64,000 nt of DNA, taken from contig JAHDVS010000011.1 in the NCBI GenBank assembly GCA_023382435.1, positions 1-64,000 on the forward strand. Reading direction: 5' to 3'. Positions 33,183-38,756 of the stretch are shown here, one piece after another; the first letter of the stretch is position 1, and the number at the start of each line of letters is the position of its first letter. Source of the DNA: Thermoleophilia bacterium (GTDB lineage: Bacteria > Actinomycetota > Thermoleophilia > Gaiellales > Gaiellaceae). Below the pieces are notes generated by a model, which saw only the letters and a list, made by a program, of their open reading frames with translations, did not search any database and was not told the DNA's origin. The position numbers and the translations under genes are program-made.

Positions 33183-33770
33183 TCAGGCGTCCTGGAACGT
33201 CGCGATCAGCGCTTCGGCCACCACCCGCATCGGACGGCCCGACACCTGACTCGCGCGGCGTAGGCGCCCGAACGCCTCACGCTCGGTCAGGCTCTCGCGC
33301 TCCATCAGCAGCCCCTTCGCCCGCTCGACCAGCTTGCGGGTCGCGAGCGCCTCCGAGAGCGACTCGGCCTCCTCTCGCAGCGCCGTGAGCTCCTCGTGGC
33401 GGGCGCTCGCGGCCTGGATCGCCGGCAGGAGATCGGCCTCGCGAAACGGCTTCACGAGGTACCCGAACACGCCTGCCTCGACGGCTCGCGACACGAGCTC
33501 CTCCTGACTGTAGGCGGTCAGCATCACGATCGGGATCGGCCGCTCCTCGAGGATCCGGCGCGCCGCCTCGATCCCGTCGAGCCGTGGCATCTTGACGTCC
33601 AGGATGGCGAGGTCGGGAACCGTCTCCCGCGCGAGCTCGACGGCCTCCTCGCCGTCGCGGGCCTCAGCGCAGACCTCGAAGCCGGCGCGCTCGAGCAGGT
33701 CTCTCAGGTCGAGGCGGATGATCGTCTCGTCCTCGGCGAGCAGGATCCTCAACAGGGCGTGCGCGCTCAC
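33183..33770 (-). CDS. ANTAR-domain response regulator (PdtaR-like)
   Basis: 195 residues from GTG 33770. The receiver domain (8-125) has acidic LLAEDETIIRLDL, phosphoacceptor AILDVKMPRLDG and LVKPF. A coiled-coil linker and the C-terminal ANTAR RNA-binding domain (LVERAKGLLMERESLTEREAFGRLRRASQ) follow. ANTAR proteins act as transcription antiterminators by binding paired hairpins in leader RNAs. The start overlaps the stop of the kinase gene (GTGA), so it is regulated and translated with its sensor. A leader terminator upstream of glnA 3.5 kb away is a candidate target. Confidence 0.95.
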   Translation of the reverse strand: MSAHALLRILLAEDETIIRLDLRDLLERAGFEVCAEARDGEEAVELARETVPDLAILDVKMPRLDGIEAARRILEERPIPIVMLTAYSQEELVSRAVEAGVFGYLVKPFREADLLPAIQAASARHEELTALREEAESLSEALATRKLVERAKGLLMERESLTEREAFGRLRRASQVSGRPMRVVAEALIATFQDA

Positions 33771-35170
33771 AGCGGGAATGCGACCTCCGCGCGCAGGCCG
33801 CCCTCGCCGCCGAGCGTCAGTGTCCCCTTCAGCTCGTCGCGGACGAGCGCCTGCACGATCGACAGGCCGGTACCCGGCTTGGCGGTGCCGACGCCGGGGC
33901 CGTTGTCGCTGATCGCCAGCACCGCTCCGCCGTCCCCGCCCGTCAGCTCGATCACGACGTCGCCGCCGCCGTGCTCGAGCGCGTTCTGGAGCAGCTCGGA
34001 GAACACGAGCGCGAGCGCGGTGGCCCGGCCGCCCGCGAGCGAGACCGGCTCGAGGCTCGCCTCGACGCGCTTGCCGGCGCCGAGACCCTGGACGATCATC
34101 CGTCGCAGCCGCTCGATCAGCTCGCCCAGCTCGACGTCGTCCTCCCGCCGCTCCGTCAGCACCTCGTGAACGGCGGCGATCGCGAGGATCCGGTTGACCG
34201 AGTCCTCGAGGGCGCGCCTCGGATCGACGTCCGTGGAGCGTGCCTGCAGGCGCAGCATCGAGGCGACGGTCTGGAGGTTGTTCTTGACGCGGTGGTGGAT
34301 CTCCTGGGCGAGCACCCCGCGCAGGACCGCGCGGCCGTGAACGAGCGCGACCGCGGCGTGGTGCGCGATCGACGTGAGGAGCGTCCGCTCCTCGTCGGTG
34401 AACGCGGTGTCCCGCTCGCAGACGAGCTCGCCGAGGTGGCGGCCCTTCCAGCGCAGCGGCAGGCGCTCCATGTGCGTCCCCGGACGGCCCTCCGGCCAGG
34501 CCGTCCGCCCGTCCTCGAGCACGACGGCGGCGCCCGTGGCGGCGACGGCGGACATCGTGGTCTTCACGATCGCCTCGAGCGACTCCTCGAGGTAGAGCGA
34601 CTCGGAGACCGCCTCCGAGATCCGAGCCAGGGCCTCGAGCTCCGCAACGCGGCGCTGGGCGTGGTCGTAGAGCTTCGCGTTCTCGATCGCCTGCGCGACC
34701 TGGCCGGCGATCGCCATCAACAGGTCGATCTCCCCGTCGTCGTAGCCGCGGGGTGCGACCGTACGCACGTTCAGCGCTCCCTCGAGCCGCTCCTTGGCGA
34801 GGATCGGCACCGCCAGGATCGACTGGTACTGCTCCTCGTGGAGGTTCGGGAAATGCTTGAAGCGCGGGTCGAGGTGAGCGGCTCGCGGGATCATGATCGG
34901 TGCCCGGGTTGCGGCGGCGGCACCGGTGATCCCCTCGCCCGGACGCAGCTTGGGCACGCGGGTCAGCTCGTCCACCCGGGAGCCCACGGAGGCTTTCAGC
35001 ACGAGCTCGTCCGCCATCTCGTCGTAGAGGTAGACGAAGCAGGCGTCAGCCTCGAGTGCCTTCGCGACCTTGGCCGCGATCAGCTCGAAGAGCTCGTCGA
35101 GGTCGAGGGTCGAGTTGACGGCCTCGATGGTCTCCGTGACGAGCCCGAGATGGCGTTCGGAGCGGTTCAC
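33767..35170 (-). CDS. HWE/HisKA_2-type sensor histidine kinase with GAF domain (PdtaS-like)
   Basis: 467 residues from GTG 35170. An N-terminal GAF domain (about 10-165, LFELIAAKVAKALEADACFVYLYDE...YQSILAVPILAKERLEGALNV) precedes a second PAS/GAF-like segment (about 180-260). The HisKA_2 dimerisation box with phospho-His is EIHHRVKNNLQTVASMLRLQAR, and the HATPase has ELLQNALEHGGG and ISDNGPGVGTAKPGTGLSIV. No membrane spans, so a cytosolic sensor as in PdtaS. It phosphorylates the ANTAR regulator encoded next. A -10-like TATGAT at 35185-35180 sits nine bases before the GTG, implying a leaderless mRNA. Confidence 0.94.
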   Translation of the reverse strand: MNRSERHLGLVTETIEAVNSTLDLDELFELIAAKVAKALEADACFVYLYDEMADELVLKASVGSRVDELTRVPKLRPGEGITGAAAATRAPIMIPRAAHLDPRFKHFPNLHEEQYQSILAVPILAKERLEGALNVRTVAPRGYDDGEIDLLMAIAGQVAQAIENAKLYDHAQRRVAELEALARISEAVSESLYLEESLEAIVKTTMSAVAATGAAVVLEDGRTAWPEGRPGTHMERLPLRWKGRHLGELVCERDTAFTDEERTLLTSIAHHAAVALVHGRAVLRGVLAQEIHHRVKNNLQTVASMLRLQARSTDVDPRRALEDSVNRILAIAAVHEVLTERREDDVELGELIERLRRMIVQGLGAGKRVEASLEPVSLAGGRATALALVFSELLQNALEHGGGDVVIELTGGDGGAVLAISDNGPGVGTAKPGTGLSIVQALVRDELKGTLTLGGEGGLRAEVAFPL

Positions 35171-35191
35171 GCCTCTGCGATCATAGGTGCC

Positions 35192-35665
35192 GTGTCCACT
35201 TTCCAGATCGCCCTCGTGCTCCACGTGTTCGGGGTGATCGTGATGCTCGGCGGGATCCTCACGGCCGGGCTCGCGTTCTACGCGGCCCGACGGCGCGAGC
35301 GCCCGGCCGAGATCGCCGCGATCCTGTCCCTGTCGCGCTGGGGCGTTCTCACGGGTGCGGTCGGATTCCTGATCGTGACCGGCTTCGGTCTCTGGCTCGT
35401 CGACCTCGGCGGGTTCGGGTACGGGGCGGACTGGCTCGTCGCGACGTACGTTCTGTTCGGGGTCTCGAACCTGCTCGGCGCGGCGACCGGACGCGCTCCG
35501 AAGCGCGCGCGCCAGCTTGCCGAGCGGCTCGCCGCGGACGGCGACCGGGCGACCGACGAGCTGCGACGGCTCCTTCGCGACCGGCCCTCCGAGGTGCTGA
35601 ATCATGTCTCGACCGCGCTCATGCTGGCGGTGCTCGTGCTCATGGTCTGGCGACCCGGGTCGTGA
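35192..35665 (+). CDS. DUF2269-like integral membrane protein
   Basis: 157 residues from GTG 35192, only 21 bases from the divergent kinase start. Four hydrophobic spans: TFQIALVLHVFGVIVMLGGILTAGLAF with a His in span 1, WGVLTGAVGFLIVTGFGLWLV, WLVATYVLFGVSNLLG and a C-terminal HVSTALMLAVLVLMVW. The pattern matches predicted membrane proteins of the DUF2269 type, whose function is unknown. The ATCATAGG region shared with the divergent gene is the likely promoter. Confidence 0.75.
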   Translation: MSTFQIALVLHVFGVIVMLGGILTAGLAFYAARRRERPAEIAAILSLSRWGVLTGAVGFLIVTGFGLWLVDLGGFGYGADWLVATYVLFGVSNLLGAATGRAPKRARQLAERLAADGDRATDELRRLLRDRPSEVLNHVSTALMLAVLVLMVWRPGS

Positions 35666-35920: not shown

Positions 35921-35969
35921 GGGCGGGACGTGACCCGCCCCTACGGGGTGCTCGCCCGCCCCTACAGGA
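35911..35969. repeat. Dispersed GC-rich palindrome, copy D, containing stop codons of both flanking genes
   Basis: Left arm CACCCCGTAGGGGCGGG (35911-35927) and right arm CCCGCCCCTACGGGGTG (35934-35950) pair perfectly over 17 bases with a 6-base loop ACGTGA. A further half-copy GCCCGCCCCTACAGG follows (35954-35968). The TAG of the PRC-barrel-like gene lies in the left arm and the TAG of glnA (minus, 35962-35964) lies in the extra half-copy. The hairpin should act as a terminator for the convergent genes. Confidence 0.85.
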
Positions 35970-37308
35970 CCGGCAGGTAGCGCGCGAGCTCCCAGGGCGT
36001 GACCTGCAGGCGGTACTCGTCCCACTCCTTCTCCTTGATCTGCACGAAGCGCTCGAAGGTGTGCGGGCCGAGGATCCGCTGGCAGAGCTCGGACTGTGCA
36101 AGCTCGTCGATCGCCTCGCCGAGCGACTCGGGCAGGCTGATGATGCCGCGCTCGCGCCGCTCCTCGTGGGTCAGCTCGAACAGGTTCTCCTCCATCGGCG
36201 GCGGCAGCTCGTAGCCTTTCTCGATCCCCTCGAGCCCGGCCTGGAGCAGCGCCGCGAAGGCCAGGTACGGGTTGCACGCGGGATCGGGGCAGCGGATCTC
36301 GGCGCGGGTCGCCTGCTCCCTGCCCGGGTGGTAGAGCGGGATCCGGATCAGCGCCGAGCGGTTACGCTGCGACCAGGCGACGTAGACGGGCGCTTCGTAG
36401 CCCGGCACGAGGCGCTTGTAGGAGTTGACCCACTGGGCGAAGATCGCGCAGATCTCACGCGCGTGATGGAGTTGCCCCGCGATGAACGCCTTGGCCGTGG
36501 GCGACAGGTGCCACGGGTCTTCCGGGTCGTAGAACGCGTTCTTGCCGTTCGTGAACAGGGACTGGTGGGTGTGCATCCCCGAGCCGTTCTGGCCGAACAG
36601 GGGCTTCGGCATGAACGTCGCGTAGATGCCGTACTTCGTTGCGATCTCCTTGACGATCAGCCGGTAGGTGACCGTGTGGTCGGCCATGCCGAGCGCCTCG
36701 GAGTAGCGCATGTCGATCTCGTGCTGGGACGGCGCCACCTCGTGGTGGGCGTACTCGACCGGGATGCCCATCGACTCGAGCGCCTTGATCGTCTCCTTGC
36801 GCCATTCGGACGCCACGTCGAGGGTCGCGAGGTCGAAGTAGCCGCCGTGGTCGAGCACGCGCGTGCCGCTGTCGTCCTCGAAGTAGAAGTACTCGAGCTC
36901 GGGCCCGACGTTGAAGGTCTCGAAGCCCATGGCGCGCATCCGCTCGAGCGCGCGGCGCAGCACGTAGCGCGGGTCGCCCTCGTACGGTTTCCCGTCCGGC
37001 GTGACGATGTCGCAGATCATGCGCCCGACCTTGTACTCGCCGGTGCGCCAGGGGAGCACCTGGAACGTCCCGGGATCGGGGATCGCGACCATGTCCGACT
37101 CCTCGATCGGGTTGAAGCCCGTGATCGACGAGCCGTCGAAGCCCATCCCATCGTCGAGCGCCGCCTCGATCTCCTGCACCGTGACGGCGAAGCTCTTGAG
37201 CTGGCCCAGGATGTCCGTGAACCAGAGGAGGACGAAGTCGACCCCTTCCTCCGCCATGCGCTCGAGAACGCGCTTGCGATCCGCCGGATCGCTCGTTGCC
37301 CTTCCCAT
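35962..37308 (-). CDS. glnA: Glutamine synthetase, type I
   Basis: 448 residues from ATG 37308, with AGGAGG five bases upstream. The beta-grasp domain has VDFVLLWFTDILGQLKSF and GMGFDGSSITGF. The catalytic domain has GPELEYFYFED, EYAHHEVAPSQHEIDMRY, MPKPLFGQNGSGMHTHQSL, and RNRSALIRIPLYHPG with RAEIRCPDPACNPYLAFAALLQAG. It makes glutamine from glutamate, ammonia and ATP. At the site where adenylylated enzymes have NLYDLPPEE this one has NLFELTHEERRERGI: Phe replaces Tyr, so control by adenylylation is not expected. It is preceded by a leader with an intrinsic terminator. Confidence 0.97.
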   Translation of the reverse strand: MGRATSDPADRKRVLERMAEEGVDFVLLWFTDILGQLKSFAVTVQEIEAALDDGMGFDGSSITGFNPIEESDMVAIPDPGTFQVLPWRTGEYKVGRMICDIVTPDGKPYEGDPRYVLRRALERMRAMGFETFNVGPELEYFYFEDDSGTRVLDHGGYFDLATLDVASEWRKETIKALESMGIPVEYAHHEVAPSQHEIDMRYSEALGMADHTVTYRLIVKEIATKYGIYATFMPKPLFGQNGSGMHTHQSLFTNGKNAFYDPEDPWHLSPTAKAFIAGQLHHAREICAIFAQWVNSYKRLVPGYEAPVYVAWSQRNRSALIRIPLYHPGREQATRAEIRCPDPACNPYLAFAALLQAGLEGIEKGYELPPPMEENLFELTHEERRERGIISLPESLGEAIDELAQSELCQRILGPHTFERFVQIKEKEWDEYRLQVTPWELARYLPVL

Positions 37309-37325
37309 CGACACCTCCTGAAATG

Positions 37326-37390
37326 AAAAAAGCCCCAGGCGCAATCAGCTTGCGCCTGAGGCATCGTCGCCTCGAACGGGGGCCAGTATA
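37326..37390 (-). promoter_or_regulatory. glnA promoter and leader with intrinsic terminator (attenuator)
   Basis: On the minus strand a -10 TATACT (37390-37385) is followed by hairpin P1, stem GAGGC/GCCTC with hexaloop GACGAT (37373-37358). Then comes a 13-bp terminator hairpin GCCTCAGGCGCAA/TTGCGCCTGGGGC with loop GCTGA (37362-37332) and six T (37331-37326). The glnA Shine-Dalgarno follows only a few bases later. The GCCTC of P1 is also the first part of the terminator stem, so the two compete. Readthrough control of glnA is therefore likely. The trigger is not known; an ANTAR antiterminator is encoded nearby. Confidence 0.75.
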
Positions 37391-37424
37391 GACGATCGGG
37401 GGGCCGGCGCGCCCCCCGATCGTC
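37391..37424 (-). terminator. Terminator hairpin downstream of the SIMPL gene
   Basis: Perfect 13-bp arms GACGATCGGGGGG (37391-37403) and CCCCCCGATCGTC (37412-37424) with an 8-base loop, starting ten bases after the stop of the leftward SIMPL gene. There is no T-run; the hairpin runs straight into the glnA -10. Confidence 0.75.
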
Positions 37425-37434
37425 ACCGCCATGC

Positions 37435-38163
37435 CTACGAGATCGCGAAGGTCACGGTCAGGGTCGCCTGGATCTCCTGGAGGCCGGGCTCGATCGGGAC
37501 GCCGCCGCCCGCCGAGTCCTGCGCCGCTTCCGCGTAGACGGGGACGGAGCCGCCGCCCTCGACGATGTTGACGACCGCGCCGAGCGAGACGCCGGCGGCC
37601 GCCGCGATCGCCTTCGCCTTGGCGCGCGCGTCCTCGAGCGCCACCTTCAGGGCGTCCTGGTAGAAGCCGCTCTGATCGTCGATCGACAGCATCGGCCCGT
37701 ACACCTGGTTCGCTCCCGCTGCGGCGGCCGCGTCCACGACGGGGCCGACATTCGCCAGATCCGCGATCTTCGCCGTGATCGTGTTGACCGCCGAGTAGCC
37801 GACGATCGCCTGGCCGTCGTCGGAGTAGCGCGGGTAGACCGAGACCTGCTGCGTCTGGATGTCCGCGGAGGCGACACCGGCGGCCTTGACCGCGTCGATC
37901 ACCTTCTGCACCGCAGCGTTGTTCGCGTCGAGCGCCGCGCCGGCGGTCTCGCCCTGGGATTCGACGCCGAACGAGAACTCAGCCCGGTCGGGCGCCGCCT
38001 CGACCGAGCCCATCCCGGTCACCGTGATCCCGGTCGGCGCCGTGCCTGCCGCGGCCTGACCGTTCGCCTCGTCCGGGCGGCCAACGCCCGCGAACGCCGC
38101 GATGCCGACGCCGAGCGCTGCCAGCGCCGCAACGGCGGCGACTCTCCTGCCGATGTGGTTCAT
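37435..38163 (-). CDS. SIMPL (DUF541) domain exported protein
   Basis: 242 residues from ATG 38163, with GGAGGAGG five bases upstream. Signal peptide/anchor RRVAAVAALAALGVGIAAFAGVG, then the SIMPL domain: ITVTGMGSVEAAPDRAEFSFGVESQGETAGAALDANNAAVQKVIDAVKAAGV, IQTQQVSVYPRY, GYSAVNTITAKI and an Ala-rich helix before the last strand ATLTVTFAIS. Members (OMP28/YggE-like) form periplasmic or surface oligomers; some are linked to oxidative stress. Role here unassigned. Monocistronic. Confidence 0.92.
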   Translation of the reverse strand: MNHIGRRVAAVAALAALGVGIAAFAGVGRPDEANGQAAAGTAPTGITVTGMGSVEAAPDRAEFSFGVESQGETAGAALDANNAAVQKVIDAVKAAGVASADIQTQQVSVYPRYSDDGQAIVGYSAVNTITAKIADLANVGPVVDAAAAAGANQVYGPMLSIDDQSGFYQDALKVALEDARAKAKAIAAAAGVSLGAVVNIVEGGGSVPVYAEAAQDSAGGGVPIEPGLQEIQATLTVTFAIS

Positions 38164-38231
38164 TCCAGCCTCCTCCGCTGTTCGTCGTTCATGATCCTCG
38201 GACGGGCCGGCGGGCGGAATTGTTCCCGGCG

Positions 38232-38756
38232 TCAGCCGGTCGTGGCGTACGCCGGCGCGGCCGTCGCTCCCAGGTACTGCTGCCAGCGCTCGGGGATGTG
38301 GGATGCGGCGAGCGTGACGAACAGGGCCGGCGCGGGCGGGCGCGGCTTCACCTGCGGGTGCATCTGGGCCTCCTCCGGCAGCCGGTCGCCCTTGCGCAGG
38401 TTGCACGGGGCGCAGGAGGCGACCACGTTCTCCCACACGGAGTCGCCGCCGCGGCTGCGAGGCACGACGTGGTCGAGCGTGAGCCGCCCGGTCGTCCCGC
38501 AGTACTGGCAGCGCCAGCCGTCGCGCGCGAACAGGGCCCGCCTCGAGATGCGCCTCTGGATCACGCGCGGCACCCGGACGTACGCGACGAGCCTGATCAC
38601 GTGGGGCCACGTGTAGGCGCGGGCGGCGGAGCGCAGCGGGCGATCGGCCTCCTCGAGCACCTCGGCCTTCCCCTTGATCACGAGCACGTGCGCACGTCGC
38701 ACGGAGCAGACGTTCAGGGGCTCGTAGCTCGAGTTGAGAACGAGAACCTGCTGCAT
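38232..38756 (-). CDS. HNH endonuclease family protein
   Basis: 174 residues. N-terminal VLVLNSSYEPLNVCSVRRAHVLVIKGKAEVLEE is the pattern of a conserved bacterial single-copy HNH protein. The HNH core includes zinc Cys pairs CQYCGTTGRLTLDHVVPRSRGG and ENVVASCAPCNLRKGDRLP, with catalytic His in LDHVVP. Such proteins are widespread in actinobacteria and cyanobacteria as stand-alone chromosomal genes with unknown substrate, so a restriction role should not be assumed. Confidence 0.93.
   Translation of the reverse strand: MQQVLVLNSSYEPLNVCSVRRAHVLVIKGKAEVLEEADRPLRSAARAYTWPHVIRLVAYVRVPRVIQRRISRRALFARDGWRCQYCGTTGRLTLDHVVPRSRGGDSVWENVVASCAPCNLRKGDRLPEEAQMHPQVKPRPPAPALFVTLAASHIPERWQQYLGATAAPAYATTG

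Follow-up and report, generated by a model that had tools for sequence, protein, structure and literature searches.

A predicted ANTAR-type transcription attenuator in the glnA leader of a Thermoleophilia bacterium

We studied the leader of the glutamine synthetase gene glnA in a 64,000-nt stretch of DNA (the window) from a Thermoleophilia bacterium of the family Gaiellaceae (contig JAHDVS010000011.1, positions 1 to 64,000), where an original prediction had placed a nitrogen attenuator with a possible ANTAR protein as its regulator. Judged from the sequence, and with a probability of about 0.83, this leader is a nitrogen transcription attenuator of the ANTAR type, operated by a PdtaS/PdtaR pair. 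What is observed directly in the genomes compared is the pair of alternative RNA structures, how well it is conserved, which genes bear it, and the linkage of glnA to an ANTAR regulator and a sensor kinase.

Alternative structures in the glnA leader and their conservation

The elements of the leader, from the promoter to the gene, are as follows.
37390..37385, minus strand: -10 box of the glnA promoter, TATACT, read from the sequence.
37373..37358, minus strand: hairpin with a six-nt loop (hexaloop), GAGGC-GACGAT-GCCTC, 5-bp stem, predicted antiterminator and equivalent of the second (P2) hairpin of an ANTAR site, read from the sequence.
37362..37332, minus strand: intrinsic terminator GCCTCAGGCGCAA-GCTGA-TTGCGCCTGGGGC, 13 bp with 9 G-C pairs, from a terminator scan and covariation.
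37331..37326, minus strand: U tract of six T after the terminator stem, from the sequence.
37319..37314, minus strand: Shine-Dalgarno sequence AGGAGG of glnA, 6 nt past the U tract, from the sequence.
35962..37308, minus strand: glnA, type I glutamine synthetase of 448 aa with its ATG at 37308, the proposed controlled gene, from TIGR00653.

The -10 box, the hexaloop hairpin and the overlapping terminator with its six T thus stand where the original prediction had put them, and the glnA product matches TIGR00653 at 544 bits, above the cut-off. Hexaloop hairpin and terminator (37326..37362, minus strand, with the U tract) share 5 bases, which close the former as its 3′ arm and open the stem of the latter, and in the growing RNA the hexaloop hairpin forms before the terminator; we infer that the transcript starts near 37378, ∼5 nt before this hairpin. 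The full terminator fold has an energy of -28.8 kcal/mol, compared with -27.4 kcal/mol when the hexaloop hairpin is enforced, and with only 1.4 kcal/mol between the two folds, protein binding could decide which of them forms. Folding of the leader gave z = -3.8, with 0 of 200 shuffles as good. A single terminator was detected within 36000-38500 when both strands were searched, but shuffled sequence yields 0.8 ± 1.0, so that the pattern scan by itself is not significant and the significance of the leader comes from its conservation and covariation. No Rfam family reached its gathering score in a search of the leader, and the trpB motif (21.5 bits against a cut-off of 59) was taken as chance, like the other sub-threshold matches. 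Right after the upstream SIMPL gene and abutting the glnA -10 box there is also a perfect 14-bp hairpin without a T run, GACGATCGGGGGGC-GCGCCG-GCCCCCCGATCGTC (window 37394-37427), which is possibly a U-less terminator of SIMPL.

To follow the leader in relatives, GlnA orthologues were gathered from 61 relatives and then from 250 genomes of the class, and ∼80 leaders were read; we refer to the family of the window as f1, to another family in the same order as f2, and to two further families as f3 and f4. The module of hexaloop and terminator precedes glnA in nearly all members of f1 and in f2, and it was not found before glnA in f4 (leaders L027 and L051) or in the sampled leaders from the other families of the class. 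A covariance model (R1) built from 41 sequences, the window leader itself among them, scores this leader at 59 bits (E 2e-16). The terminator stem covaries strongly: double-sided changes occur at 6 of its 11 pairs (32 cells), a level reached in 0 of 500 shuffles. The hexaloop stem is nearly invariant among the aligned leaders and hence uninformative about covariation. All 33 single-hexaloop glnA leaders of f1 have a TAnnnT box, in most cases TAGACT, at 9-17 nt 5′ of the hairpin (shuffles: mean 1.7, maximum 5), and from its position the start is predicted upstream of the terminator in every one of them. Conservation of the module before glnA, covariation of the terminator and the fixed place of the -10 box together support reading the leader as an attenuator, as first suggested. 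The reading thereby survives both conditions that had been named as refuting it, a hairpin absent before glnA in relatives and a transcript start past the terminator, the latter as far as the predicted start shows.

The hexaloop was found in all aligned glnA leaders. Its loop has the consensus R-A-Y-G-N-N in the alignment of 41 elements, and A2 and G4 are unchanging in 33 of 33 f1 glnA leaders; the element pattern demanded RAYG, although leaders inspected earlier without such selection also display it. As had been remarked at the outset, the window loop GACGAT fits the A1/G4 consensus of known ANTAR sites imperfectly: G4 fits and A1 does not. A scan with the pattern matched 45 contigs (∼1 estimated by chance), and the named matches were almost all metagenome-assembled genomes of Gaiellaceae or Thermoleophilia; a match in Sutterella (L238) is probably chance. 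In one relative without a detected ANTAR protein (G004, leader L021) the glnA loop is GATAAG, which has lost G4, and the terminator is kept; the contig ends near the expected place of pdtaSR, and this coincidence is only suggestive. In some genera (L082, L053, L054 and L116) the element is lost before glnA and is carried by a divergently transcribed second glutamine synthetase gene.

One and two hexaloops before nitrogen genes

In the window's own genome the covariance model gave two strong matches, one before glnA and the other in the leader of a P-II gene and amtB on another contig (35 bits, E 2.6e-8); the next-best match scored 16 bits.
C12, L130 1520-1900, own genome: glnK-amtB leader, with hairpin 1 GGTCGCC-GAGGAT-GGTGACC (hexaloop), hairpin 2 GAGGC-ATGGC-GCCTC (5-nt loop), then a terminator.
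Of the two hairpins in this leader, the first has a loop of six nt and the second one of 5 nt. Across the order, 54 of 67 genomes contain matches, often two or three per genome. When the neighbourhoods of 40 more matches were read, most were found to sit before glnA2 (a second glutamine synthetase), GlnII, glnK-amtB, amt or PdtaR-type response regulator genes. Five leaders (L183, L185, L187, L196 and L197) lie ahead of response regulators that resemble PdtaR without an ANTAR domain, and in L197 a full receiver-ANTAR gene comes next after the ANTAR-less gene that carries the leader; such placement suggests autoregulation or a competitor receiver. Weaker matches precede ATP-grasp-like, methylglyoxal synthase-like, glycosyltransferase and FAD oxidase genes, named by eye (L173, L189, L191, L192 and L194), and may represent a wider regulon or chance.

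Matches are essentially limited to f1 and f2. Two extra weak matches in the class scan and one in the phylum scan were dismissed on inspection (outside the order, L278 falls inside coding sequence, L279 lacks a T tail, and the terminator of L285 is at a gene end); a further weak match lies in f4 (L199). Further afield, in matches of the pattern scan, a hairpin GAGGC-RATGAA-GCCTC with a terminator occurs before an amt gene in Massilibacillus (L224) and again ahead of a gene in a deltaproteobacterial sequence (L242), there with a first hexaloop GACGAC; both look like real ANTAR sites, alike across phyla down to the G at loop position 1.

Upstream of the shared hairpin, a first hexaloop hairpin with G4 is present in 34 of the 39 other leaders and f2 glnA leaders, compared with a mean of 4.9 and a maximum of 10 in shuffled sequence, the same conditions, a loop of exactly six nt with G4, being imposed on real and shuffled sequence. 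The stem of this first (P1) hairpin covaries, with 32 cells changed on both sides and 0 of 500 shuffles as high; because the P1 alignment was chosen for pairing and G4, its percent paired is inflated and the changes on both sides are the informative part. In these dual-hexaloop leaders the -10 box is mostly ∼32–37 nt 5′ of the second hairpin, and the second hexaloop uses a 3′ arm common with the terminator. The second hairpin of the other leaders has G4 in 39 of 39, though G4 was a condition for locating most of them, and loop position 1 is A in 27 and G in 12. Leaders of glutamine synthetase genes in f3, which the model missed, have hexaloops with G4 as well, two in several cases (for example CGTGGTTGGC-AATGGC-GCCGACCACG and GACGC-GACGAG-GCGTC). 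In the f3 glutamine synthetase leaders L266-L271 the second 3′ arm of the hexaloops can pair further downstream with no U tract following, which may point to a different kind of output.

By this comparison, the window hairpin corresponds to hairpin P2, the second of an ANTAR site, which refines the original prediction, where it was called the P1 hexaloop; a counterpart of the first hairpin is missing from the glnA leader. The leader is, on this sequence comparison, a reduced single-hexaloop version in which the RNA begins at the second hairpin. It has the six-nt loop, G4 and a hairpin that overlaps and excludes the terminator, and its genome encodes an ANTAR protein with linkage to the targets; it has neither two tandem stem-loops nor A at loop position 1. 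Because two defining features are absent here while the sister leaders possess most of them, we regard the glnA leader as a variant of dual-hexaloop ANTAR RNAs and not as a strict member.

The PdtaS/PdtaR pair and competing explanations

Within 4 kb downstream of glnA and on the same strand lie the genes of a two-component pair.
33767..35230, minus strand: pdtaS-like sensor kinase, GAF - HisKA_2/HWE - HATPase, start approximate, from a domain search.
33183..33770, minus strand: pdtaR-like response regulator, receiver plus ANTAR, proposed antiterminator, from Pfam (Response_reg 1.5e-29, ANTAR 3e-20).

The nearby PdtaR-like ANTAR gene, noted initially at 3.5 kb, is 3.6 kb from the glnA leader. 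Its product has a receiver, a C-terminal ANTAR domain and a HisKA_2 kinase as partner, as the definition of PdtaR asks, and its closest solved relatives are Rv1626 (1s8n_A, 2.4e-53) and EutV (6wsh). Where the contig allows, in ∼23 genomes, glnA is followed at 1.9–7.2 kb by an ANTAR gene of like orientation, and the PdtaS kinase gene precedes that ANTAR gene wherever read; in the apparent exception to this linkage, G006, pdtaS runs off the contig end. The families with PdtaR (f1, f2 and f3) are those with hexaloop leaders before a glutamine synthetase, whereas f4 showed no PdtaR (its sole ANTAR protein is only 34% identical) and the two leaders read have no element, which indicates that regulator and RNA element go together at the family level, on few f4 leaders. 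Since ANTAR domains act in this way on G4 hexaloops (PMC3369931, PMC8934654), PdtaR is by analogy most likely the protein acting on the leader. The ANTAR hypothesis gains strong independent support from the paired G4 hexaloops ahead of other nitrogen genes, from the glnK-amtB site of the same genome and from the conserved linkage of glnA to an ANTAR regulator and kinase.

Several observations weigh against this assignment. A first hexaloop is present in 0 of 33 f1 glnA leaders, the window included, where the -10 position leaves no space for one, and antitermination by EutV requires both hexaloops (PMC3369931). Loop position 1 in these leaders is G in 25 and A in 8, with G in the window. Moreover, window PdtaR keeps R142, K143, E160 and R168 of the EutV contact residues and differs at others (Y164F, M172Q, N173V, R175G and R177P), and EutV no longer binds RNA once M172, or N173/R175/R177, have been replaced by alanine (PMC8934654). 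The substituted contact loop is itself conserved, as ASQ..G[RK], in nearly all PdtaR of the order. A second ANTAR protein, an alternative partner, is encoded in the same genome at C12:49614 (L131, C12:48500-51500), not near any element found. A single hexaloop is nevertheless the minimal EutV binding unit and binds as well as two, and A1 is not contacted (PMC8934654), so that the objections from the missing loop and from G1 are eased for binding, though not for function.

The leader could be a real glnA attenuator whose hairpin is held by another factor, such as the second ANTAR protein, an RNA-binding protein of some other type or a small ligand. The replacement of M172, N173, R175 and R177, the presence of that second protein and the unlikeness of the single-hexaloop leader to its dual-hexaloop sisters would all fit, but the synteny with glnA belongs to PdtaR and PdtaS, some PdtaR-type genes of relatives bear the leader themselves, and a constant loop G4 with dual hexaloops elsewhere is the signature of ANTAR targets; we therefore consider another factor unlikely. 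It is far less probable still that the hairpin is a plain terminator of the upstream gene with the glnA promoter further down. A SIMPL gene does end upstream on the same strand, and any intergenic terminator could serve it, but the 6 nt from the U tract to the Shine-Dalgarno sequence leave no room for a promoter, the -10 box is upstream of the terminator in all 33 leaders, and SIMPL has its own 14-bp hairpin past its stop. In L011, L014, L071 and L072, moreover, the upstream gene is divergent (an epimerase N-terminus on the opposite strand), so there is nothing to terminate, and a hexaloop with invariant A2 and G4 would be roleless. Attenuation by a leader peptide from a short open reading frame starting at the hairpin ATG (MPQAQADC..., two Gln codons) we regard as hardly credible: although in the window this ATG is preceded by GAGG and the early codons include CAG and CAA, it rests on the freely varying loop positions 5-6 (A5 in 8/33, T6 in 3/33), and the reading frame overlaps glnA and is not conserved.

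Proposed mechanism and known ANTAR systems

For the PdtaS/PdtaR attenuator the following sequence of events is proposed. The RNA would start ∼5 nt before the hexaloop hairpin, which would fold first; if left unheld, its GCCUC arm would be captured by the 13-bp terminator and transcription would stop just before the glnA Shine-Dalgarno sequence. Under an inducing condition, probably nitrogen limitation, as the target genes suggest, the GAF-containing kinase PdtaS would phosphorylate PdtaR, whose ANTAR domain would then bind the hexaloop via G4, stabilise the hairpin and block the terminator, so that polymerase continues into glnA. In this scheme we infer that PdtaR is phosphorylated and binds the hairpin, what the inducing signal is and which way the control runs. 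The same system would control glnK-amtB here and, in relatives, also other glutamine synthetases, ammonium transporters and PdtaR-type genes.

ANTAR response regulators of unrelated phyla, GnfR of Geobacter and NitR of Clostridium, reportedly act as antiterminators on nitrogen genes, and NitR is said to adjoin glnA. An ANTAR regulon for nitrogen genes is not a new theme, as predictions for other bacteria already include sites upstream of P-II, ammonium transporter and glutamine synthase genes (PMC3369931). The predicted Firmicutes regulons, for example in Desulfotomaculum acetoxidans, resemble the present one in having P-II, ammonium transporter and glutamate/glutamine synthase sites, several per genome; they belong to a different phylum, the search for them presupposed A1 and G4 in both loops, and the set described here adds GlnII, a second glutamine synthetase and PdtaR-type genes (PMC3369931). 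With the target RNAs of EutV, NasR and AmiR (Ramesh et al. 2012, PMC3369931; Walshe et al. 2022, PMC8934654) the leaders share G4 hexaloops, a second hairpin whose 3′ arm lies within the terminator, and nitrogen genes as targets, and with the EutV system a linked ANTAR response regulator and kinase. In contrast to those RNAs, the window glnA leader has one hexaloop, at the RNA 5′ end, with a loop of the type R-A-Y-G-N-N, mostly G1, and in contrast to EutV the window regulator has other residues in its RNA-contact loop. The actinobacterial ANTAR RNAs with PdtaR/Rv1626-type regulators (Mehta and Ramesh 2021, PMC8164766) are alike in the PdtaR-type receiver-ANTAR protein and in the dual hexaloops found here in sister leaders, whereas Thermoleophilia and glnA targets are unnamed in the text of that study and the output here would be termination ahead of core nitrogen genes.

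We are inclined, if only slightly, to think that the whole family drives its glutamine synthetase by a stripped-down ANTAR attenuator, with one 5′-end hexaloop (R-A-Y-G versus A-N-N-G) and a PdtaR contact loop that has co-diverged, so that a single hairpin is enough. The EutV–RNA structure suggested one hexaloop as the minimal binding unit, yet function seemed to need two, and a natural, family-wide one-loop leader beside two-loop sister leaders, probably read by the same regulator, makes this question directly testable. The leaders would also provide PdtaS/PdtaR with defined targets, and with a role in nitrogen control, in a soil lineage for which most information comes from metagenomes.
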